37,335 bases of DNA from Halanaerobium saccharolyticum (GTDB lineage Bacteria; Bacillota; Halanaerobiia; Halanaerobiales; Halanaerobiaceae). How positions within the stretch are numbered: the stretch's first letter is position 1; each line of letters begins with the position of its first letter. The translations under genes and the position numbers were made by a program. The notes beneath the pieces were generated by a model, which was not told the origin of the DNA, ran no database searches, and saw only the letters and a list, made by a program, of their open reading frames with translations. The stretch lies in the NCBI RefSeq assembly GCF_003053565.1, contig NZ_QAXS01000030.1, positions 1 through 37,335 of the forward strand. Direction: 5' to 3'. Shown here piece after piece: positions 4,483 to 37,327 of the stretch.

Positions 4483-4605
4483 TTAATTTTCCGGTTGTTT
4501 TGCTTCAACATCATTTAAATCTTCACCACAGTAGGGACAGATCCAATTCTTTTTACTTGAACTATAGCTTTTACCTTTGCACTCCGGACATTCCTTTACA
4601 TACAT
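4483..4605 (-). CDS. zinc-ribbon microprotein (40 aa)
   Basis: An ATG at 4605 follows GGAGGGGTTAAATAG and opens MYVKECPECKGKSY. A second pair, ICPYCGED, follows. Two CPxC knuckles spaced about 15 residues apart form a minimal zinc ribbon. The gene ends 10 bases before the Gam-like start, so the two are probably co-translated. Function is unknown; similar tiny zinc ribbons occur in phage early regions. Confidence 0.65.
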   Translation of the reverse strand: MYVKECPECKGKSYSSSKKNWICPYCGEDLNDVEAKQPEN

Positions 4606-4619
4606 CTATTTAACCCCTC

Positions 4620-5186
4620 CTACGCTGATTTAATCTTTAGGTAGTTATCTTTAGTCAAGTCCTTGAGCATCTCTTTAATCGGCTTCTCACCCTTATCAAG
4701 CACCGGCATAATAACAGCTTTAACATCATCCTGATTATCTAAAATGAAGATAGGATTTTTATTGTCTTTTGCCTTATATTTAACCCCATATTGAAGCAAG
4801 AATTCATAATCTCGGTTGAACATTCCAATTTCATTACCTGCCTTAAAGAGTCGAACCTCGTCACCTGAATCATTTTTCTTGTAGAAGTCAGTAATTACTG
4901 CCTCATACTTGGCATTACCAATCTGACTGGTAACAGTTTTAGTGTTCAGCTTATTTTCTGCAAATACATTACCCCCAGCAGAAGAGATAGTTCCCTCAAA
5001 GTTAAAGGGTATATCTGCAGTTACCTTGTAACTGTTGTACTTAGCAAAAAACTTACCGAATTCAGCCTCGTTAAGCTTTACCATGACATAGGTATCAGTC
5101 ACGTTATATGACCCATCCTCGAACTTCTCAATAATTACATTATTTCTGGTTCTAATAAGCTTTGCAATTTCTTTACCATCAATCAT
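4620..5186 (-). CDS. hypothetical protein (188 aa)
   Basis: I do not recognise this protein. It begins MIDGKEIAKLIRTRNNVI and looks like a soluble mixed alpha/beta protein without membrane segments or cysteines. The C-terminal part contains DVKAVIMPVLDKGEKPI, faintly reminiscent of the end of sliding-clamp domains, but nothing else supports that. The ATG at 5186 is chosen over a GTG at 5195 because GGAGAG sits too close to the GTG. It is the first gene of the group leading into the zinc ribbon (14-base gap) and Gam, so a role in the recombination module is plausible. Confidence 0.65.
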   Translation of the reverse strand: MIDGKEIAKLIRTRNNVIIEKFEDGSYNVTDTYVMVKLNEAEFGKFFAKYNSYKVTADIPFNFEGTISSAGGNVFAENKLNTKTVTSQIGNAKYEAVITDFYKKNDSGDEVRLFKAGNEIGMFNRDYEFLLQYGVKYKAKDNKNPIFILDNQDDVKAVIMPVLDKGEKPIKEMLKDLTKDNYLKIKSA

Positions 5187-7392: not shown

Positions 7393-9795
7393 TTATTGAT
7401 CGTATCTCGACTTCACTTCCTCATTTAGGTCAATTCCAATATAGAATCTTGCTTTTTTCCCTTTCCAAGTGCGATGTCCAACCTTTATCCCCTCCCTCTT
7501 TAGACTAGTTGTGAATTTTCTCCTAGTAACGTAATTTTTCATGCCATTTTGACTACAAAAGAACTTATACTCTTCATAGAAAATTTTCCCATATACTTGT
7601 TTGTCTTGACCAATAACTGCTCTATCTCTAACAAATGCTTTAACTGAATCATTTTCATCCATATAATCTGCCATGGCCTGCTTCATCGGATCAGAACGTG
7701 TAAACTGTCCTTGTTTTTTAAGCCTTTTCAATCCTTCTAATGCCCAATTGAAAATCCCTGGTATTTCTTTAAATAGTTTTTCTTTCAGTTTGGGATCAAA
7801 GCCTGGATCACTACTATTAAATGTATTTGGGAAATCAACTATTTCAAATCTTCGATACCAGCCTGCTGTCTTATCTCTAGATGATGGCACCTCGTTAGCT
7901 GAGAATAAGAGCCTAACGACCGGTGTAAAGTCAAATGATTCTCCGAATTTATGCTCTCCTCTTAAAGCTTCACCAGCAATCATCGTTTTTAATACTCCAG
8001 TTTCATTTAAATATTTGGGATCAATATCTGAACATATATTTACCAGCTTATCCTGAATATAGGCAGTCTCAAATCGATTAGAAAGACGATGCATAGGTAT
8101 ATTAGATAAATTTTCTTCTCCAAATAATTTAGCGATTACCTCAAGCAACGTGCTCTTACCGTTACTTCCTGACCCAGTAAGTATTAATGCCTTATGGTAA
8201 TTTGTATCAGGAATTAAGCAGTATCCGATAAATTCTTGAATAAAGTCTCTAGTTTTTTGATCCGGAAGCCATTCTTTTAACGTTTTCGTCCATTTAAAGC
8301 ATCTTGAATTTTTAATATATTCTATTGGCAATTGAAATTGACTATAGTATTCCTTATCATGTTCTTTTAAAGTCATGTTCTTCCAATCTAACATGCCATT
8401 CTGAAGGTTAATAAAACTTTTATTCGGATCAATTCCTACATTAAACCTTTTTTCATTTTTGAAATCCATGTGTAGATTCTTAAATTCTTCCTTAACCTCA
8501 CGAACTTTATTGATCTTAACCCATTTGGGGTTCATAAGAGATAAAACCTCTCTAATCGAACTTTCTAGATACTTTAGATTCAATTTACGCCAATAACCCT
8601 TGCTGATTTGATAGGAAAACATCACATCCTGTTCTGCACAGTAGGCCCAACTTCTTCCATAATTGTTAGCTTCATAAGCTCTTATAATCTCTGCTATTTG
8701 ACGTGGTAAAAAATCATCTAAATCAGGTATTTCATTTTCTTTATTTTCCTGATCCTCGCTTATGTTATTTTTTGCTGAATTTAAAGCCTTTTCAATGGTC
8801 TTTTGATAATAATCTTGTCTTAACTTTAAATCACATTTATTCTTTCTTCTACAGGCGATTAATAAATCACAAATTTCTTGCGGCTTCCAATTCTTCCTAG
8901 CTGCTATATTAGCCAAAGCGAAATCATAACCAGAAGGAGAATTATCTTTAAGATTATCTCTATTGTGGTTCCACGTGTCTTTTACAAAGTCATTATCTAA
9001 CAGTTTTTTTAACTTATCTTCTGGTGGACTAGCTTCTGGATCTAGTTTGAAATTAAATTCTCCTATTGCTTCTTTTTCAGAACCTGAATTAAAATTCATA
9101 TCATATTCTTCAGGATCAATAAGATATTGTTCAAAATCATCAACAGAATACCTCAAATCTTCATTTGTTTCTACTATTTTTACAGGTTTTGGAGCTCCTT
9201 TATTATTAGATGTTCCGGGTAGCCTCATCAGCCTGTCTAAATTAAAAACCATGTCAATCGTCCAGCCTTTTCTTTTAGCAATTACTTCTGCAGTTTTATT
9301 CCAACTTTTTAACAATTGTTGTGCTTCTTTTCGTTCTTCCTCATCTTCAAACTGCCAAGGTTCTTTAAATAAATAAAAAACCTGATAACCATGACCACTG
9401 TCTGTTATTATTGTTGGTTTTAAAGGAAATTTCTTAATAAGATCCATTGCTTCTTCTTTAGTTGGCGGTAGGTTATCTTTACCACGATGTGGGGCTTGAA
9501 CATCTATGTCAAGCCAAAGTCCAACAATAGAACTGATATTTTCTTGTTTGCATCGAGTGTAATTTTTATTTCCCAGACTATTAATATATTTTTTAGGGGC
9601 TAAACCTCCGCCAAAATACACATTATTACTTTTATCTATATTCATAACAAATTTAACAGCTTGATCAATAGTATCACACCAATAACTTCTCTTTGTTTCT
9701 AGGACCCAAATTAAAAAAGACTCTTCAGGATCTTTATATTCAAATAGTGCTTTTAGAAAAGCATATAGATATTCAATAAGTTTATTAGTTTCCAT
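7393..9795 (-). CDS. primase-polymerase / SF3 (D5-type) helicase fusion
   Basis: This 800-residue replication protein has an N-terminal archaeo-eukaryotic-primase-type domain: LWLDIDV with Asp96 and Asp98, DSGHGYQVF near 132-140, and RLMRLPGT near 188-195. The C-terminal part is a D5/SF3 helicase with Walker A GSGSNGKST (541-549), Walker B LVNICSDID, motif C LLFSANEVP (629-637) and a winged-helix tail. Such proteins prime and unwind phage and plasmid origins. The ATG at 9795 is chosen because AGGAGG lies seven bases ahead of it; the longer frame to 9819 has no site. It lacks its own zinc finger, and two CHC2-like proteins lie just downstream. Confidence 0.92.
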   Translation of the reverse strand: METNKLIEYLYAFLKALFEYKDPEESFLIWVLETKRSYWCDTIDQAVKFVMNIDKSNNVYFGGGLAPKKYINSLGNKNYTRCKQENISSIVGLWLDIDVQAPHRGKDNLPPTKEEAMDLIKKFPLKPTIITDSGHGYQVFYLFKEPWQFEDEEERKEAQQLLKSWNKTAEVIAKRKGWTIDMVFNLDRLMRLPGTSNNKGAPKPVKIVETNEDLRYSVDDFEQYLIDPEEYDMNFNSGSEKEAIGEFNFKLDPEASPPEDKLKKLLDNDFVKDTWNHNRDNLKDNSPSGYDFALANIAARKNWKPQEICDLLIACRRKNKCDLKLRQDYYQKTIEKALNSAKNNISEDQENKENEIPDLDDFLPRQIAEIIRAYEANNYGRSWAYCAEQDVMFSYQISKGYWRKLNLKYLESSIREVLSLMNPKWVKINKVREVKEEFKNLHMDFKNEKRFNVGIDPNKSFINLQNGMLDWKNMTLKEHDKEYYSQFQLPIEYIKNSRCFKWTKTLKEWLPDQKTRDFIQEFIGYCLIPDTNYHKALILTGSGSNGKSTLLEVIAKLFGEENLSNIPMHRLSNRFETAYIQDKLVNICSDIDPKYLNETGVLKTMIAGEALRGEHKFGESFDFTPVVRLLFSANEVPSSRDKTAGWYRRFEIVDFPNTFNSSDPGFDPKLKEKLFKEIPGIFNWALEGLKRLKKQGQFTRSDPMKQAMADYMDENDSVKAFVRDRAVIGQDKQVYGKIFYEEYKFFCSQNGMKNYVTRRKFTTSLKREGIKVGHRTWKGKKARFYIGIDLNEEVKSRYDQ

Positions 9796-9899
9796 AAAAT
9801 TCCTCCTTGCTGTTTTCAAATTTTATTTAATCATGATATAATTAACTTAATAAATCGTTTTGTTTGGGGCTACCTCTACCGAAGGTGGCTCCAAGATTT

Positions 9900-12448: not shown

Positions 12449-12601
12449 GTCGAAAATTCTAACACCCTACCCTGATGCGCCCCGTCATAATAGGATTTAA
12501 TTCTCGAAACCACCCGTCGAAAATTCTAACAACCCCCCCGTCGAAAATTCTAACACCCTACCCTGATGCGCCCCGTCATAATAGGATTTAATTCTCGAAA
12601 C
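12449..12601. repeat. pair of 62-bp direct repeats plus a third partial copy
   Basis: A 62-bp unit at 12449-12510 recurs without mismatch at 12540-12601. It opens GTCGAAAATTCTAACA and ends AATTCTCGAAAC. The 16-base opening occurs a third time at 12516-12531. The core (CCTGATGCGCCCCGTC) is strikingly GC-rich against the AT-rich surroundings. The block ends five bases before the stop codon of the Rep gene. It may be terminal repeats of a mobile element, a recombination site, or replication iterons. Confidence 0.8.
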
Positions 12602-12606
12602 GAGGT

Positions 12607-14121
12607 TTAGACCAATAATATGCAGGTTAGAGTCTCTGCTCCCTGTTCATTATAGTCATATCTGCGCTTTAAATATCTGCTCTCTTCTAATGCTTTAATG
12701 TGATCACTAATAGTTTGTCTTTTAACCCCTAGCTTTTCAGATAAAGTAAGTGTACTGGGAAATGCTGTTCCTTTGTTAAATGAGTATTTTAGTATCAATA
12801 TGTATACCTTAAGCTGAGTTGGTGAAATGGCCTGATAAATAGCTCCGTTAATTACACCATTGTTAATCAATGTGTATCCAGTACCATAACTACTTTGCTT
12901 CTCAGCTTTACAGAATGTTGGACATCCTCTTCTCTTTCTAGCTTCTATTAAACCAAGACTAGCCAAATTATCAATAGCTGTGGATATCCTTTGTCGACTC
13001 ATACACATTTCACCTTTATGGGTTATTTCTTTTTTTATCTGGGTTGAATTAAGGCCGTTCTCAGCAGCCAAAAGCACACCATATACTATCAGTTCATACC
13101 CTGAAATCTCTCTATAATTGTTGAATATACGGTTGTTGAGCTTAATATGATTATCAAGTACCAGGTTATCTATACTGCCTTTAATAGGACAGTTATAGCG
13201 GTCACAGTGGTGGCTGAGCAACTCCTGGAGCTCTGCATCAGGTATGGAACATCCTAGCAGTTTGTATTCTTCATCCCAGTAGGCATAAAAGTCATTTTTG
13301 ACTTTCCCTTTCTTCTCCGGCGGCTGATTTAATTCATTCCATGCCATCACTATATCATAGGCTCTTCTTTTGGAATAACCCATCATCTGCAGCCACTTAG
13401 TCAACCTGCCCTGAGCCCAGTTCCTTTCACCTGCTTCTACACCTTTTAAGATTGAGTTAATACAGGGCCTTTCCGCCTCTGGTAGTTTTATTCCTTTGAT
13501 TCTATCAGACCCGAAATCAGGTGATTTTGCCGGCCTGATACCCATCAAATTAGATAGATACTTTATGCTGTATTTTTTAGAGGGATCCAGCTCAATAACT
13601 TTACACTCTACTTTTTCTAATTTGTTATTATAACTGCCGGGCAGCCTCATAATTCGAGCGGCTTCAGCAGCTCTTGAATCAGATCCAGTTTCATTGGAAA
13701 TATATTTAACAAAAGAGATCACTTTATTGGCATCAAACGGATCATCAAGCAGCCAGTAACTATGTATTCCATGACCAGAGCTCAAATATATGCTTGCTTC
13801 AGGCAGTCCTGCCTTTTTGATGCTCTTCTTGACCTCTTTTAGGTTCACATCATCATAGTCCGCCCATAGGGCATTTACTTTAGTTAGATTGCTGGCTTTA
13901 CCTGAAGTGGTATCTTTGCGGCCAGAAACTCCAAAATAAATGTCCTTATCCTTTGGCGGCTTATATTCTAATAATTCATCTGTATCTTTAAACCACACTT
14001 TCTTGACTTGGCCTTTTCTGTTAAATTCTCTGATCTCAATAAATCCAGGTAGGTCCGATAAAATGTGATTGATGAATTTAGCATTATTCACTTCTTTGTT
14101 TATTTCTTTTATCGAAGTCAT
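12607..14121 (-). CDS. plasmid Rep-type primase with C-terminal winged helix
   Basis: This 504-residue replication protein has an archaeo-eukaryotic-primase-type N-terminal domain: VNALWADYDDVN with Asp88 and Asp90, LSSGHGIHSYWL at 114-124, and ARIMRLPGSYNN at 155-166. A Cys/His stretch (CDRYNCPI) and two winged-helix segments follow; the last is TLSEKLGVKRQTISDHIKAL near residues 463-482. Unlike the 7393-9795 protein it has no helicase domain. The layout fits a plasmid initiator that primes at its own origin. The start at 14121 has GGGGAG upstream. It lies 34 bases after the ribbon-helix-helix gene in the par operon. Confidence 0.82.
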   Translation of the reverse strand: MTSIKEINKEVNNAKFINHILSDLPGFIEIREFNRKGQVKKVWFKDTDELLEYKPPKDKDIYFGVSGRKDTTSGKASNLTKVNALWADYDDVNLKEVKKSIKKAGLPEASIYLSSGHGIHSYWLLDDPFDANKVISFVKYISNETGSDSRAAEAARIMRLPGSYNNKLEKVECKVIELDPSKKYSIKYLSNLMGIRPAKSPDFGSDRIKGIKLPEAERPCINSILKGVEAGERNWAQGRLTKWLQMMGYSKRRAYDIVMAWNELNQPPEKKGKVKNDFYAYWDEEYKLLGCSIPDAELQELLSHHCDRYNCPIKGSIDNLVLDNHIKLNNRIFNNYREISGYELIVYGVLLAAENGLNSTQIKKEITHKGEMCMSRQRISTAIDNLASLGLIEARKRRGCPTFCKAEKQSSYGTGYTLINNGVINGAIYQAISPTQLKVYILILKYSFNKGTAFPSTLTLSEKLGVKRQTISDHIKALEESRYLKRRYDYNEQGAETLTCILLV

Positions 14122-14155: not shown

Positions 14156-14647
14156 TTAATTTATTTCCGCATTATTATATAAAAAGTCAATAGCTAACCT
14201 TATCAGATTAGATTTATCTCTGTCACTCTTTCTTGCCATTTCGTTCAGTTTTTTATCCTGATCTTCGTAAATATAGTAAGTCCTTTTAATCTTTTTAGGT
14301 TCACTTTTATCTATAGAAATACTTATAGATGGATTTTTTTTCGCAATAATATCGGATTCAGGCTTGACTTCAGATTCATCACCAACACTATCAGAGCTGC
14401 TATTAGAGGAATCAGCGTCTTTAGAATTATCATCGTCAGCAGCATTGCTGGTATTATTACCATTATTATTGCTGTCACCATTACCATCAATGTTACTGTC
14501 AATGGTACCATCAACATTACCATCACCATTGACATCATCTTTTTTCGCTTCTTTATCTTTAGACTTACTCTTTTCTTTTTTCTCTTTGACATCATTTAAA
14601 AGATCGCCAAATTTTTCATCATTTTTTTCTTCTGCATTTTTAGACAA
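14156..14647 (-). CDS. ribbon-helix-helix partition protein with acidic low-complexity region (ParB/ParG-like)
   Basis: This 163-residue protein has a charged N-terminus, a low-complexity D/N/G/S region (about residues 37-90) built from hexanucleotide-repeat DNA, and a C-terminal ribbon-helix-helix-like domain: KRTYYIYEDQDKKLNEMARK followed by DKSNLIRLAIDFL. The start overlaps the stop of parA by eight bases. A ribbon-helix-helix partner directly after parA is the arrangement of type Ib (ParA-ParG or delta-omega) plasmid partition systems, where it binds the centromere and represses the operon. That role is inferred from position and fold. Confidence 0.75.
   Translation of the reverse strand: MSKNAEEKNDEKFGDLLNDVKEKKEKSKSKDKEAKKDDVNGDGNVDGTIDSNIDGNGDSNNNGNNTSNAADDDNSKDADSSNSSSDSVGDESEVKPESDIIAKKNPSISISIDKSEPKKIKRTYYIYEDQDKKLNEMARKSDRDKSNLIRLAIDFLYNNAEIN
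14443..14538. repeat. phased hexanucleotide repeat inside the ribbon-helix-helix gene (16 units)
   Basis: Ninety-six bases divide into 16 hexamers of the type CATTAC, CATCAA, TGTTAC and TGGTAC without loss of phase. On the minus strand they encode the Asp/Asn/Gly/Ser-rich part of the protein. The same hexamer vocabulary forms the long array at 15771-16142. Confidence 0.75.
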
Positions 14648-15401
14648 TTTTCTCCACCACCCGCTTCAAAACTTTAAAAAACTGATCTGCTGCTTCTTCA
14701 TCATATTCAAATACTGTTTTCCCCGCTCTACCAGCTTCAGTTATTTTAACCCTTCTGTTAATCGGTTCTGTTAAAATATCTGGTTCATCGGAGAATATAT
14801 CTTTTAGAAGCTCTAGATTAGCCTTTGATTCATTTGTTCTTGCATCAAACATATTAGGTATAATCAGAGTAATAAGGTCGCTGCTCAATCTCAGTTCGTC
14901 TAAGTACTCATATATATTACCAACAGCTCTTACACTGGCTGACTCAACCTGAACCGGCATAATAATATGATCTATATAACATAATACTGCATCATTAACT
15001 TTTGTTCTTTGCGGTCCACAGTCAAACATAACAAAATCATAATCCATATCTTCTAGGTCCGATAATATTTCTTCCATGATTATATCTATCCTGGAATTTC
15101 GATGTAATTCTGAGTTAATCTTTTCAATATTATCATTAGGCAAAAGATCTAAATTTTCTCTAGCATTGATTATGCACTCACTTAATTTAGCAGGATAACG
15201 AGGATCCATTAAATCAAAAAAGGTATTCTCATAATCTTTTTCAGTAAATCCTAAAAATAAGCTGGAATCATTTTGCCCGTCTAAGTCAATCAATAAAACA
15301 TTAAAATCTAATTTAGCTAGTCCATGAGCTAATTGAACTGAAGTAGTGCTTTTTCCTACTCCACCTTTATTATTGATCACTGCTATTTTTTTTGGTCCCA
15401 C
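14640..15401 (-). CDS. parA: ParA-family partition ATPase
   Basis: This 253-residue ATPase has the deviant Walker A motif NNKGGVGKSTTS (signature Lys12, Lys17), the switch block LLIDLDGQNDSS, and Walker B DFVMFDCGPQ. It drives plasmid segregation with a centromere-binding partner. The GTG at 15401 is preferred because AAAGGGGG lies seven bases upstream and the product then starts MGPKKIAVINNK, as usual for short ParA proteins. A longer TTG-initiated form to 15473 would overlap the upstream HTH gene by 35 bases. It has no N-terminal HTH of its own, which fits the type Ib class. Confidence 0.92.
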   Translation of the reverse strand: MGPKKIAVINNKGGVGKSTTSVQLAHGLAKLDFNVLLIDLDGQNDSSLFLGFTEKDYENTFFDLMDPRYPAKLSECIINARENLDLLPNDNIEKINSELHRNSRIDIIMEEILSDLEDMDYDFVMFDCGPQRTKVNDAVLCYIDHIIMPVQVESASVRAVGNIYEYLDELRLSSDLITLIIPNMFDARTNESKANLELLKDIFSDEPDILTEPINRRVKITEAGRAGKTVFEYDEEAADQFFKVLKRVVEKIV

Positions 15402-15438
15402 TTCAATCCCCCTTTTTGAGAGAAAATTATCCACTCTT

Positions 15439-15621
15439 CTATTTTTCTTTATTCGATGATGATCTTTCTTCAATAAAATCTAAAAAACTCTTTTCTGTTA
15501 TACGCCAAGTATTACCAAGCTTAAACCCTTCTAACTTTTTTTCTCTTAAATATCTGCGTATAGTTTGTTCGCTTACTTTAAGTTTTTGTGCTATTTCATC
15601 AGGTGTATATATCTCAGGCAT
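15439..15621 (-). CDS. excisionase-type helix-turn-helix protein (60 aa)
   Basis: This 60-residue protein is an excisionase/MerR-like winged helix: YTPDEIAQKLKVSEQTIRRY followed by KLEGFKLGNTWRITEKSFLD. AGGAGGAGG lies six bases before the ATG at 15621. It is the first gene of the par operon, 37 bases ahead of the preferred parA start. In this position it is probably an operon regulator or accessory architectural protein rather than an excisionase. Direct repeats ATAATCTAKTAT in the promoter are candidate binding sites. Confidence 0.85.
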   Translation of the reverse strand: MPEIYTPDEIAQKLKVSEQTIRRYLREKKLEGFKLGNTWRITEKSFLDFIEERSSSNKEK

Positions 15622-15676: not shown

Positions 15677-15712
15677 ATAATCTAGTATAATACATAATCT
15701 ATTATATATCAA
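15677..15712 (-). promoter_or_regulatory. par operon promoter with overlapping 12-bp direct repeats
   Basis: On the minus strand TTGATA (15707-15712) and TATACT (15684-15689) are separated by exactly 17 bases. ATAATCTAGTAT (15677-15688) and ATAATCTATTAT (15694-15705) are direct repeats 17 bp apart covering the -10 and the spacer. They are a likely operator. The hexamer array begins 59 bases upstream of the -35. Confidence 0.65.
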
Positions 15713-15770
15713 CAATTAAATTACTTACTGAAGATTGCATTTTATGTGTCTGTGTAGTAATTACTGTCAA

Positions 15771-16142
15771 CATTAACATTAACTCTACCATTAATGGTGA
15801 CATTAACATTGACATCAATGTTACCATCAATGGTAATGGTAACATCACCATCAATTTTACCATTGACATTACCATTAATGTTAACATCAAAATTAATGGT
15901 AATGCTGGTACTAGTTTTAGTAGCGGTATTAATGTTGGTTTTAATACTAATATTGGTGTCAGTACTAAATTCAACACTAAAATTAGTTTCAACTAAAATA
16001 CTGGATATAATGTTAATTCTAAGATTACTGTTAACATTGACATCACCATTAACAACAATTCTAACATCAATGGTGACATTGACATTAATTCTACCATTAA
16101 CATTAATGGTGATGGTAACATTGACAGTAAAATTAATGGTAA
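15771..16142. repeat. 62-unit phased hexanucleotide array (candidate centromere)
   Basis: All 372 bases divide into 62 hexamers in one unbroken phase. The pattern is roughly YRTYRR-like: CATTAA, CATTGA, CATCAA, TGGTAA, TGTTAA, TACTAA. Both ends are the most regular (units 1-22 and 41-62), and the middle has drifted. In-phase reading is open for long stretches on both strands, but there is no start codon with a ribosome binding site and a TAA interrupts the plus-strand frame, so I do not call it a gene. It lies directly upstream of the par promoter, where ParG/omega-type ribbon-helix-helix proteins bind tandem short repeats in other plasmids. Confidence 0.8.
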
Positions 16143-16265
16143 GTTCTATCTGGATAACGTGCTGATCATGCTGAAATGAAAAAATAGAGATGATTTATTT
16201 TCCTGAGTGTTTTATAATGTTCTGAATATTTATCAGGTTTGTTGATAGTTTATCTTTTAATTACG

Positions 16266-16301
16266 TATCTGTATTCGCATACGGTTACGTATACGGATAC
16301 G
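16266..16301. repeat. three tandem 12-bp iterons
   Basis: TATCTGTATTCG, CATACGGTTACG and TATACGGATACG follow one another without gap; the preceding bases end ATTACG like a fourth degenerate unit. The TACG-rich sequence stands out from the AT-rich surroundings. It lies in the gene-free region between the hexamer array and the gene at 16498. Confidence 0.6.
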
Positions 16302-16310
16302 TTGCAAATT

Positions 16311-16497: not shown

Positions 16498-16710
16498 TTA
16501 ATAATCATCCAGGGAGTCTTTATTTTCTTCAGTAACTTCTATGATTTTTCTGATATATACATTGCTTGAGTCAACAGTCCCTGGTTTTACAAACTGCTTA
16601 TAGAATTCGTCATAAGCCTGGTCCTTGTTTTCCGCCCAGACCATCTTTCTTAACTGGTTATTGCCATGCTTAACAGCTGAATTATATGCTTTAATATAAA
16701 ACTGTTTCAC
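16498..16710 (-). CDS. small hypothetical protein (70 aa)
   Basis: This 70-residue protein starts (GTG) MKQFYIKAYNSAVKHGNNQL and is acidic at the C-terminus. No family is recognised. GGGGA lies eight bases before the GTG at 16710. The stop of the upstream coiled-coil gene ends one base before, so the two are translated together. A plasmid maintenance role is suggested by position only. Confidence 0.6.
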   Translation of the reverse strand: MKQFYIKAYNSAVKHGNNQLRKMVWAENKDQAYDEFYKQFVKPGTVDSSNVYIRKIIEVTEENKDSLDDY

Positions 16711-16711
16711 A

Positions 16712-17536
16712 TTAATTATCCCCTTTTTCTTGCCGATCTAAAAGAACCTGGACCTTCTCATTATATTCATCTCTAACTTCCTGCAGCTGTTTCTGGAATT
16801 CTTTTTCCTGTTCTAAAAGCGCCCGTTCTTTTTCATTAGTTAGTTTTTCCTTCATATTATCCATAGCAGTATCCTTATCATTAAGCTGCTTATTAAGTGA
16901 TTTTATCTTGCTTTCCAGCTGGTCATTTTCTTTCTGCTGTTTTTCAAGCTCTGATCCCAGCTCTTTTAAACGGTCCTTCATTTTAGGCAGCTCTTCCAAC
17001 TGATCATTCTTACGGTGAATCTCATATTTTAATTCTTGTTTTTGATCCTTAAGATTAAATATCAGATCATCTTTAGTTTCTGCAGAATTTTTCAGCTGTT
17101 CATTGTCCTTTTCGAGTTTCTCTAACTCATCTTCAAGAGAAGAGACCCTTTCTGACAACAAATTCTTTTCTTCTTTAGAATCCTTTTTTAGTTCTTGATG
17201 CTTTTCTTCTAAATCTTTAAATTCATTCTTCAATTCTTTTATTCTTTCATCTTTCTCTTGCAGCTGCTTCAGATAATTATTATCTTTCTCCCTTAATGCA
17301 ACAGCCATTTTTTCTCCCATACCGGTAAAGATATTGGTGATTTCTTTGGTAATAGTTTGAAGAGAGGCCAGATCACCACTTAACTCAGGCATCTCATCCT
17401 TAACAGTATTGATATTATAAAGTCCCAATAAGTGCTCTACAAAGTCACCACGATTTTCAAAGTCACTCATATCAGCCAGCTCATTAATCTTTTCTTTAGT
17501 TTCCTTGCTTACTTTAGCACTCCAGGTTTCTGACAT
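16712..17536 (-). CDS. ribbon-helix-helix protein with long coiled coil (KfrA/filament-like plasmid protein)
   Basis: This 274-residue protein has an N-terminal ribbon-helix-helix-like segment (WSAKVSKETKEKINELADMS, then FVEHLLGLYNI, residues 4-45). A continuous, highly charged coiled coil follows (about residues 85-270) with heptad-like Leu spacing. This layout resembles plasmid DNA-binding coiled-coil proteins such as KfrA that stabilise or organise plasmids, but the DNA-binding fold differs. The start at 17536 has GAGGAGG upstream. Four AGTTTAC sites in a 10-bp register cover its promoter and suggest autoregulation. Confidence 0.75.
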   Translation of the reverse strand: MSETWSAKVSKETKEKINELADMSDFENRGDFVEHLLGLYNINTVKDEMPELSGDLASLQTITKEITNIFTGMGEKMAVALREKDNNYLKQLQEKDERIKELKNEFKDLEEKHQELKKDSKEEKNLLSERVSSLEDELEKLEKDNEQLKNSAETKDDLIFNLKDQKQELKYEIHRKNDQLEELPKMKDRLKELGSELEKQQKENDQLESKIKSLNKQLNDKDTAMDNMKEKLTNEKERALLEQEKEFQKQLQEVRDEYNEKVQVLLDRQEKGDN

Positions 17537-37154: not shown

Positions 37155-37258
37155 TTAAACACCTTGTATAATGCATATAAACAAACCCATTATACTCTTC
37201 CTTTCTTTTTAAAATTTAATTGATTATAAAAAACAAAAATTATTTGTTGTATACTAAA

Positions 37259-37327
37259 ATTACCGGGAATTGCAAAGTAGTATTCCCGAAAGTTGCAAAC
37301 TAAAATTCCCTATTATTGCAGAATAAA
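37259..37327. repeat. three 23-bp tandem repeats, possibly IS21-type terminal repeats
   Basis: Units at 37259-37281, 37282-37304 and 37305-37327 each contain TGCA(A/G)A at the same position and begin ATTACC or ATTCCC. A fourth degenerate unit seems to lie just left. Multiple terminal repeats of this kind are characteristic of IS21-family ends. The transposase would lie to the right, outside the window. Alternatively it is an operator array for the polysaccharide cluster starting at 37154. Confidence 0.5.

Follow-up and report, generated by a model that had tools for sequence, protein, structure and literature searches.

What role does a run of 62 hexanucleotides play directly upstream of a partition operon in Halanaerobium saccharolyticum, and which protein recognizes it? 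The DNA analysed here (the window, 37,335 bases) is the entire contig C30 within a 3.2-Mb genome; no terminal overlap of the contig ends was found. Alongside sugar-uptake and polysaccharide genes it encodes a P4-type primase (7393-9819), a resolvase, a probable replication initiator and the par operon, a gene content that makes the contig most likely a plasmid. Comparison with related loci makes it probable that the array serves a type Ib system of this Halanaerobium plasmid, consisting of ParA and a ribbon-helix-helix (RHH) protein, as its partition centromere and probably as its operator too.

The upstream array and its promoter

The upstream array (15769-16142) is a proposed centromere and operator of contiguous units. 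The preliminary description of this DNA had reported 62 hexamers in a single phase with zero slips, which our analysis reproduced; the phase may begin at 15769, and it ends at 16142. In the phase of that description, position 4 is a pyrimidine in 61 of the 62 units and position 5 is a purine in all 62. The array matched itself at distances of 6, 12, 18 and 24 bases with fractions of 0.505, 0.542, 0.548 and 0.537, where first-order Markov simulation gave 0.30 (z 8.0 to 9.5); not one of 5000 simulated sequences reached the observed values. At periods of 7, 8 and 10 bases the self-match was below expectation, and contiguity of the 7-bp kind found in pSM19035 is absent from the array (0.258 at 7 versus 0.505 at 6).

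Counted from 15769, the grammar of the array is R-N-Y-R-N-Y, mostly RAYRTY, and RNY makes up 0.86 of all triplets. The flanks are indeed more regular than the middle, with RNY fractions of 0.93 (15771-15900), 0.75 (15901-16010) and 0.88 (16011-16142), and weak units such as AACTAA and GGATAT lie in the middle. RAYRTY is its own reverse complement, so the alphabet of the array is self-complementary; the single hexamers are asymmetric, of orientation F (RMCATY, such as AACATT and ACCATC) or orientation R (RATGKY, such as AATGGT and AATGTT), and both orientations are mixed along the array. Their order starts FF-FRFFFRFRRFF and is nearly unchanged in Halanaerobium kushneri. A strict 12-bp alternation of orientations was rejected for the window array, as the parity is inconsistent between the two flanks.

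The self-complementary unit accounts for three properties of the array at once, namely the same phase on both strands, frames that are open both ways and a single strand that folds on itself. Two other readings draw on these properties. One takes the array to be, or to have been, coding, either as a gene of low complexity or as a piece of an RHH linker that was duplicated. RNY triplets are a coding signature, and on the minus strand their frame stays open through 150 amino acids in the window and 125 in H. kushneri; in the latter the plus-strand frame is open for 151. However, the plus frame of the window contains TAA, the minus frame lacks any of the usual start codons, a self-complementary alphabet by itself leaves frames open on both strands, and a relative described below (G010) holds the grammar in clusters of 24-45 bp that are unable to encode such a protein. 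A coding origin is therefore very unlikely, and we rejected it. Extremely unlikely is a structured single strand or cruciform serving as a transfer or single-stranded DNA site: the single strand folds much better than shuffled sequences (z -8.4), but such folding is expected once F and R units of a self-complementary alphabet are mixed, the proteins scanned included no recognisable relaxase, and an Rfam search of the array matched no family.

As described previously, the array ends 59 bases before the -35 element of the par operon. The operon lies on the minus strand, and its array-facing side has a sigma-70-like promoter, TTGATA-17-TATACT (15684-15712, minus strand, 10 of 12 positions matched), with the -35-like TTGATA at 15712 and TATACT 17 bases further; promoter-like sites are no more frequent across the region than in shuffled sequences. 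On the far side of the array, two coiled-coil proteins of 70 and 274 amino acids are encoded (16498-17536, minus strand) that are about 90% conserved in H. kushneri and in a second relative, G003.

The par proteins and the likely binder

Domain matches confirmed the gene order of HTH, ParA and RHH in the operon. The ParA ATPase (14640-15473, minus strand) matched AAA_31/CbiA over residues 28-254 (AAA_31 with E 1.2e-35) and no HTH family, and is thus a small ParA without an N-terminal HTH domain; its PDB matches include Soj, ParA and delta' of pSM19035 (2oze, E 1.4e-14). Relatives align to the annotated protein from residue 17-28. Translation probably begins at a GTG near 15400 that follows a GGGGG site, which would give a protein of about 250 amino acids.

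The RHH protein (14156-14647, minus strand) contains RHH_1 (PF01402) at residues 128-157 with an E-value of 1.5e-5, above the Pfam cut-off. Its AlphaFold2 model has an N-terminal helix (residues 10-27) followed by a disordered linker, and RHH helices with pLDDT above 90. Type Ib RHH proteins have an unstructured N-terminal part in which an arginine activates ParA; the N-terminal segment here is lysine-rich and has no clear arginine finger. Foldseek matches of the model were weak and to RHH proteins (among them CdbA, CopG and ParG, the last being 1p94 with E 1.8), and a PDB sequence search with the protein gave no match up to E 1, hence no close solved relative.

The first gene of the operon encodes a small, excisionase-like HTH_17 protein (15439-15621, minus strand). 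Its position, with the array adjoining its promoter, would suit an array that is an operator for this protein and has no partition role. Yet arrays are present in the viral locus L060 and, in AT-rich form, in G053, L049 and L050, all of which are without the HTH gene, and 62 sites far exceed the needs of an operator, so that we regard such an operator as quite unlikely. Among the loci compared, the gene occurs in only three, all of Halanaerobium, and array-bearing loci outside Halanaerobium are without it; the HTH protein was rejected as the general binder on this ground.

The probable replication initiator (12607-14121, minus strand) adjoins the par operon, and tandem repeats are frequent in plasmid origins, which together would fit an array of iterons in a replication origin. 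We consider an origin of this kind unlikely, since no homologue of the initiator was found near the par genes and arrays of G010, G053, L060 and the other relatives compared, while ParA and RHH genes are there. Iterons of the initiator were rejected because the initiator does not travel with the arrays. A better iteron candidate is a set of 24-bp repeats (12508-12563) beside the initiator gene, which we list as candidate origin iterons. The window also has tandem 23-bp repeats at 37246-37310.

ParA and RHH are thus common to the array-bearing loci, whereas the HTH gene is confined to Halanaerobium and the initiator is not near the other arrays. This makes the RHH protein the likely, still putative, binder of the hexamers.

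Hexamer sites in related par loci

ParA homologues were collected from 59 genomes of the class, from genome contigs and from viral contigs, and further from 207 genomes of the Clostridium frigidicarnis family and 58 genomes of the Acetivibrio order. A scan of 151 genomes for the RNY pattern matched many GC-rich coding repeats in distant members of the phylum, and the pattern is therefore informative only within the class. The preliminary description had suggested a search for the same grammar upstream of parA homologues; it was found in H. kushneri (G005), G010 and L060.

H. kushneri belongs to the same genus as the window, and its DNA from parA to the HTH gene is 95.3% identical. The two are close relatives and were counted as one case; the start of the H. 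kushneri contig is missing. Both arrays of the window, the upstream one (1309-1614 in H. kushneri) and the one in the RHH gene described below, are kept. The upstream arrays differ by gaps of 24, 18, 6, 18 and 18 bases and two of 4 bases in the poorly alignable middle, so that every gap in the regular flanks is divisible by six; the in-gene arrays differ by two gaps of 12 bases each.

The strongest single result came from G010, the ParA of which is 74-75% identical. Here the contiguous array is lost and eight short hexamer clusters remain, mostly FFRR, for example ACCATT AACACT AGTATT AGTGTT AATGGT and GCCATT GACATT AGTGTC AATGGT. When 20 kb of G010 were scanned with a profile of four hexamers trained only on the window array, at a threshold where about one peak would arise by chance, 8 peaks emerged, all within the stretch (4568-5132) that immediately precedes the par operon. 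Unit, phase and place are thus kept in G010, and the array architecture is not. No in-gene array was found in the RHH gene of G010. The RHH proteins of L044 (G010), L049 and L050 have two RHH-like segments in tandem; in G010 these accompany the short clusters instead of a contiguous array.

Other relatives carry hexamers of another vocabulary. The viral contig locus L060 (ParA 60% identical) has about 450 bases of hexamers directly upstream of parA, with some phase slips, and the scan of its 8.8 kb gave five matches upstream of parA, two inside the RHH gene and one elsewhere. In G003 (L051, G003:C58) there are three separate arrays (85-198, 379-534 and 673-810) with words such as GGTACT and AGTACT. 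These adjoin genes 93-94% identical to the flanking genes of the window array, and the par genes of G003 are off the contig; the pattern looks as if a partition cassette had been exchanged. G053, L049 and L050 have AT-rich arrays upstream, of period 6 or 12. Upstream of another ParA-RHH operon of G053 lies a short repeat of a different kind, ACACAACACATAGCATAACAC (L045, 2340-2420).

In Acetivibrio, L059, L081 and L082, periods of 12 or 24 bp appear only in the RHH gene, as repeated TGTAAACA, and in C. mediterraneense and C. frigidicarnis 11-bp repeats lie upstream. No hexamer array was found, upstream or in the gene, in the RHH-partnered loci of C. mediterraneense, L077 and L078. Nine ParA genes of the same subfamily in Clostridia (L083-L085 and L088-L093) have a CheW-like partner instead of RHH, and no arrays were found with them.

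The recurrence of the array beside the ParA-RHH genes of relatives supports a partition site for this protein pair. Related par genes that lack any hexamer array had been named in advance as evidence against this, and the survey returned them in part: G010 has no contiguous array, although it keeps the grammar as eight clusters, and on the Clostridium side several relatives have no hexamer array upstream.

A second array inside the RHH gene

The grammar also occurs within the RHH gene, which the preliminary description overlooked. Across the window, its RNY density (0.83 over the 180 bases from 14378) ranks second only to that of the upstream array, with 38 unbroken RNY triplets at 14426-14539; outside the two arrays the maximum is 0.58. 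Searched by BLAST with the upstream array, the 3.2-Mb genome yielded no match other than the array itself and the RHH gene, and all 8 exact occurrences of eight consecutive RVYRBY units in the genome fall within one or the other. This second array (14396-14560, minus strand) encodes a linker rich in D, N and G, predicted by AlphaFold2 to be disordered, between the N-terminal helix and the RHH domain.

The amino acids alone are insufficient to account for the in-gene array. In codon tests the linker was recoded or shuffled synonymously, with local codon usage taken from limited sequence. The period-12 signal was reached by 2 of 1000 recodings for the window, 5 of 1000 for H. kushneri and none of 1000 for L060 or L059; the in-gene 12-bp arrays of the Clostridia L056, L081 and L082 were not above the amino-acid expectation, while that of L059 was. 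The linker codons of the window have 84 8-mers in common with the sequence upstream of parA, compared with 47 +/- 9 for synonymous shuffles, none of 500 reaching the observed number (0/500 in H. kushneri, 1/500 in L060 and 11/500 in G053). The choice of linker codons thus fits the array beyond the needs of the protein. When upstream profiles were compared with all in-gene profiles, the own gene gave the closest fit in the window (0.87), in H. kushneri (0.85) and in L060 (0.81), but the upstream array of G053 was fitted better by another gene than by its own. In L060 the words GCAAGT, GCTGGT and AATGGT recur in the RHH gene, where they encode a linker rich in S and D; its vocabulary differs from that of the window and is altered alike upstream and within the gene.

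In L056 (Acetivibrio alkalicellulosi, a record flagged as unverified contamination) the in-gene array is kept while the RHH domain breaks into a membrane-like tail, and the genome has truncated parA copies elsewhere.

The in-gene sites may have a function, or repeat exchange may have left them as a by-product. We put at a little short of an even chance that the RHH gene is dual-use DNA, in which the linker codons are centromere sites and the sites dictate amino acids of the protein that binds them; the composition of the linker (rich in D/N/G, in S/D or in N/T) would then shift whenever the site vocabulary of a lineage shifts. A passive origin, with the upstream array as the partition site and repeat DNA copied or gene-converted into a tolerant linker, is a tentative possibility that stays below even odds, and it competes only with the in-gene part of our explanation. 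The predicted disorder of the linker, the G010 gene without an in-gene array, and the gain and loss of units in multiples of six at both arrays all fit such copying, and copying between the two places could explain their match beyond the amino acids. On the other hand, the upstream and in-gene vocabularies agree within loci as distant as the window and L060. One old copying event would not maintain this agreement; repeated conversion could.

Searches of the literature for hexamer centromeres, or for sites within the gene of the binding protein, found no precedent. Single parS sites within parB genes are known, as in Bacillus subtilis, where one chromosomal parS of 16 bp, bound by an HTH-type ParB, lies inside spo0J/parB. 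Here, too, a site of a partition protein would lie within its own gene; the difference is that about 20 hexamers in a row determine the amino-acid composition of the linker. Should the in-gene sites be functional, the linker would clearly exemplify a protein segment whose sequence is set by DNA sites instead of by what the protein does.

Relation to known partition systems and a proposed mechanism

In its anatomy the locus resembles type Ib partition systems, with a small ParA without an N-terminal HTH, a small RHH gene downstream of it, and direct and inverted repeats upstream, and it is predicted to hold a centromere of this type, although one of unusual form. Its closest counterpart is pSM19035, the parS of which consists of contiguous heptads in mixed orientation upstream of a ParA-RHH operon, in sets of 9, 7 and 10 (PMC5016525). 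At least four contiguous heptads are required there for ParA activation, and their order can be, for example, right-right-left-right-right-left-left (PMC9499535). The two systems share ParA and RHH, contiguous short direct and inverted sites overlapping or near the par promoters, mixed orientation with at least four contiguous sites (the F/R strings here, and the clusters of about four hexamers in G010), and a ParA that matches delta' (2oze). The eight G010 clusters, mostly of 4-5 hexamers, are consistent with the four-site rule of pSM19035. In contrast to pSM19035, the sites here are of 6 and not 7 bp, number 62 in one block instead of 7-10, use a degenerate alphabet and have an additional array in the RHH gene, and the RHH protein has a long low-complexity linker.

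Of the original proposal of a centromere of a new type, a partition site for the RHH protein remains the best reading, with strong support from relatives, and the novelty was overstated: type Ib centromeres such as that of pSM19035 are already defined by contiguous short sites, in both orientations, ahead of a ParA-RHH operon. The statement that known repeats are of 7-8 bp and far fewer holds as a difference in period (6 versus 7) and number (62 versus 7-10). The period, the unit number and the array within the gene of the binding protein are new features. It had also been argued that a hexamer period sets the array apart by wrapping protein around the DNA. This does not separate it from known systems, since the omega protein, bound to 7-bp sites, already winds around the DNA as a left-handed helix (PMC5016525), and some relatives here have periods of 11 or 12 bp, near one helical turn.

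Other systems are less similar. ParF-ParG/parH of TP228 likewise combines ParA with an RHH protein that has a flexible N-terminal part and with upstream repeats (PMC5016525), and ParG is among the weak Foldseek matches (1p94), with no sequence match; the parH repeats, however, are split by AT-rich spacers and form no gapless array this large. Type II ParR-parC and type III TubR-tubC also place a small protein on tandem repeats upstream of the operon, and ParR is an RHH protein as well (PMC5016525), but the motor here is a ParA ATPase and not an actin or tubulin relative, and ParR repeats are about 10 bp or longer.

By analogy with pSM19035, we propose that RHH dimers would bind contiguous RAYRTY hexamers in either orientation and coat the array as a cooperative filament, and that the N-terminal segment of the RHH protein would stimulate the ParA ATPase, so that the plasmid is moved over the nucleoid. 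The same coat could repress the adjacent operon promoter. One working unit seems to be at least four adjacent hexamers, judging from G010. Sites would extend into the linker part of the RHH gene, and as a disordered linker would tolerate any amino acids that they spell, the gene probably carries extra centromere sites. At a spacing of 6 bp, adjacent dimers would be about 206 degrees apart, which would allow two interleaved rows with 12-bp spacing or the filling of only alternate hexamers; we infer from the 11- and 12-bp periods in relatives that filling of every second hexamer is an attractive arrangement.

Partition sites must be plasmid-specific, and few natural series show the site alphabet and the binding protein changing together. 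The ParA-RHH family described here has a gapless hexamer array, four-hexamer clusters and, in another lineage, a different vocabulary, and several members hold the same vocabulary also inside the gene of their own binding protein.

Two further observations concern the surroundings of these loci. One 171-kb viral contig (IMGVR_UViG_3300035034_002798) carries two copies of the par locus, L060 and L061, in opposite orientation. Beyond the array, repeats rich in TACGTA and GTATACG (16255-16305 in the window and 1625-1790 in L043, and shared with H. kushneri and G003) form a second set of sites unrelated to the hexamers.
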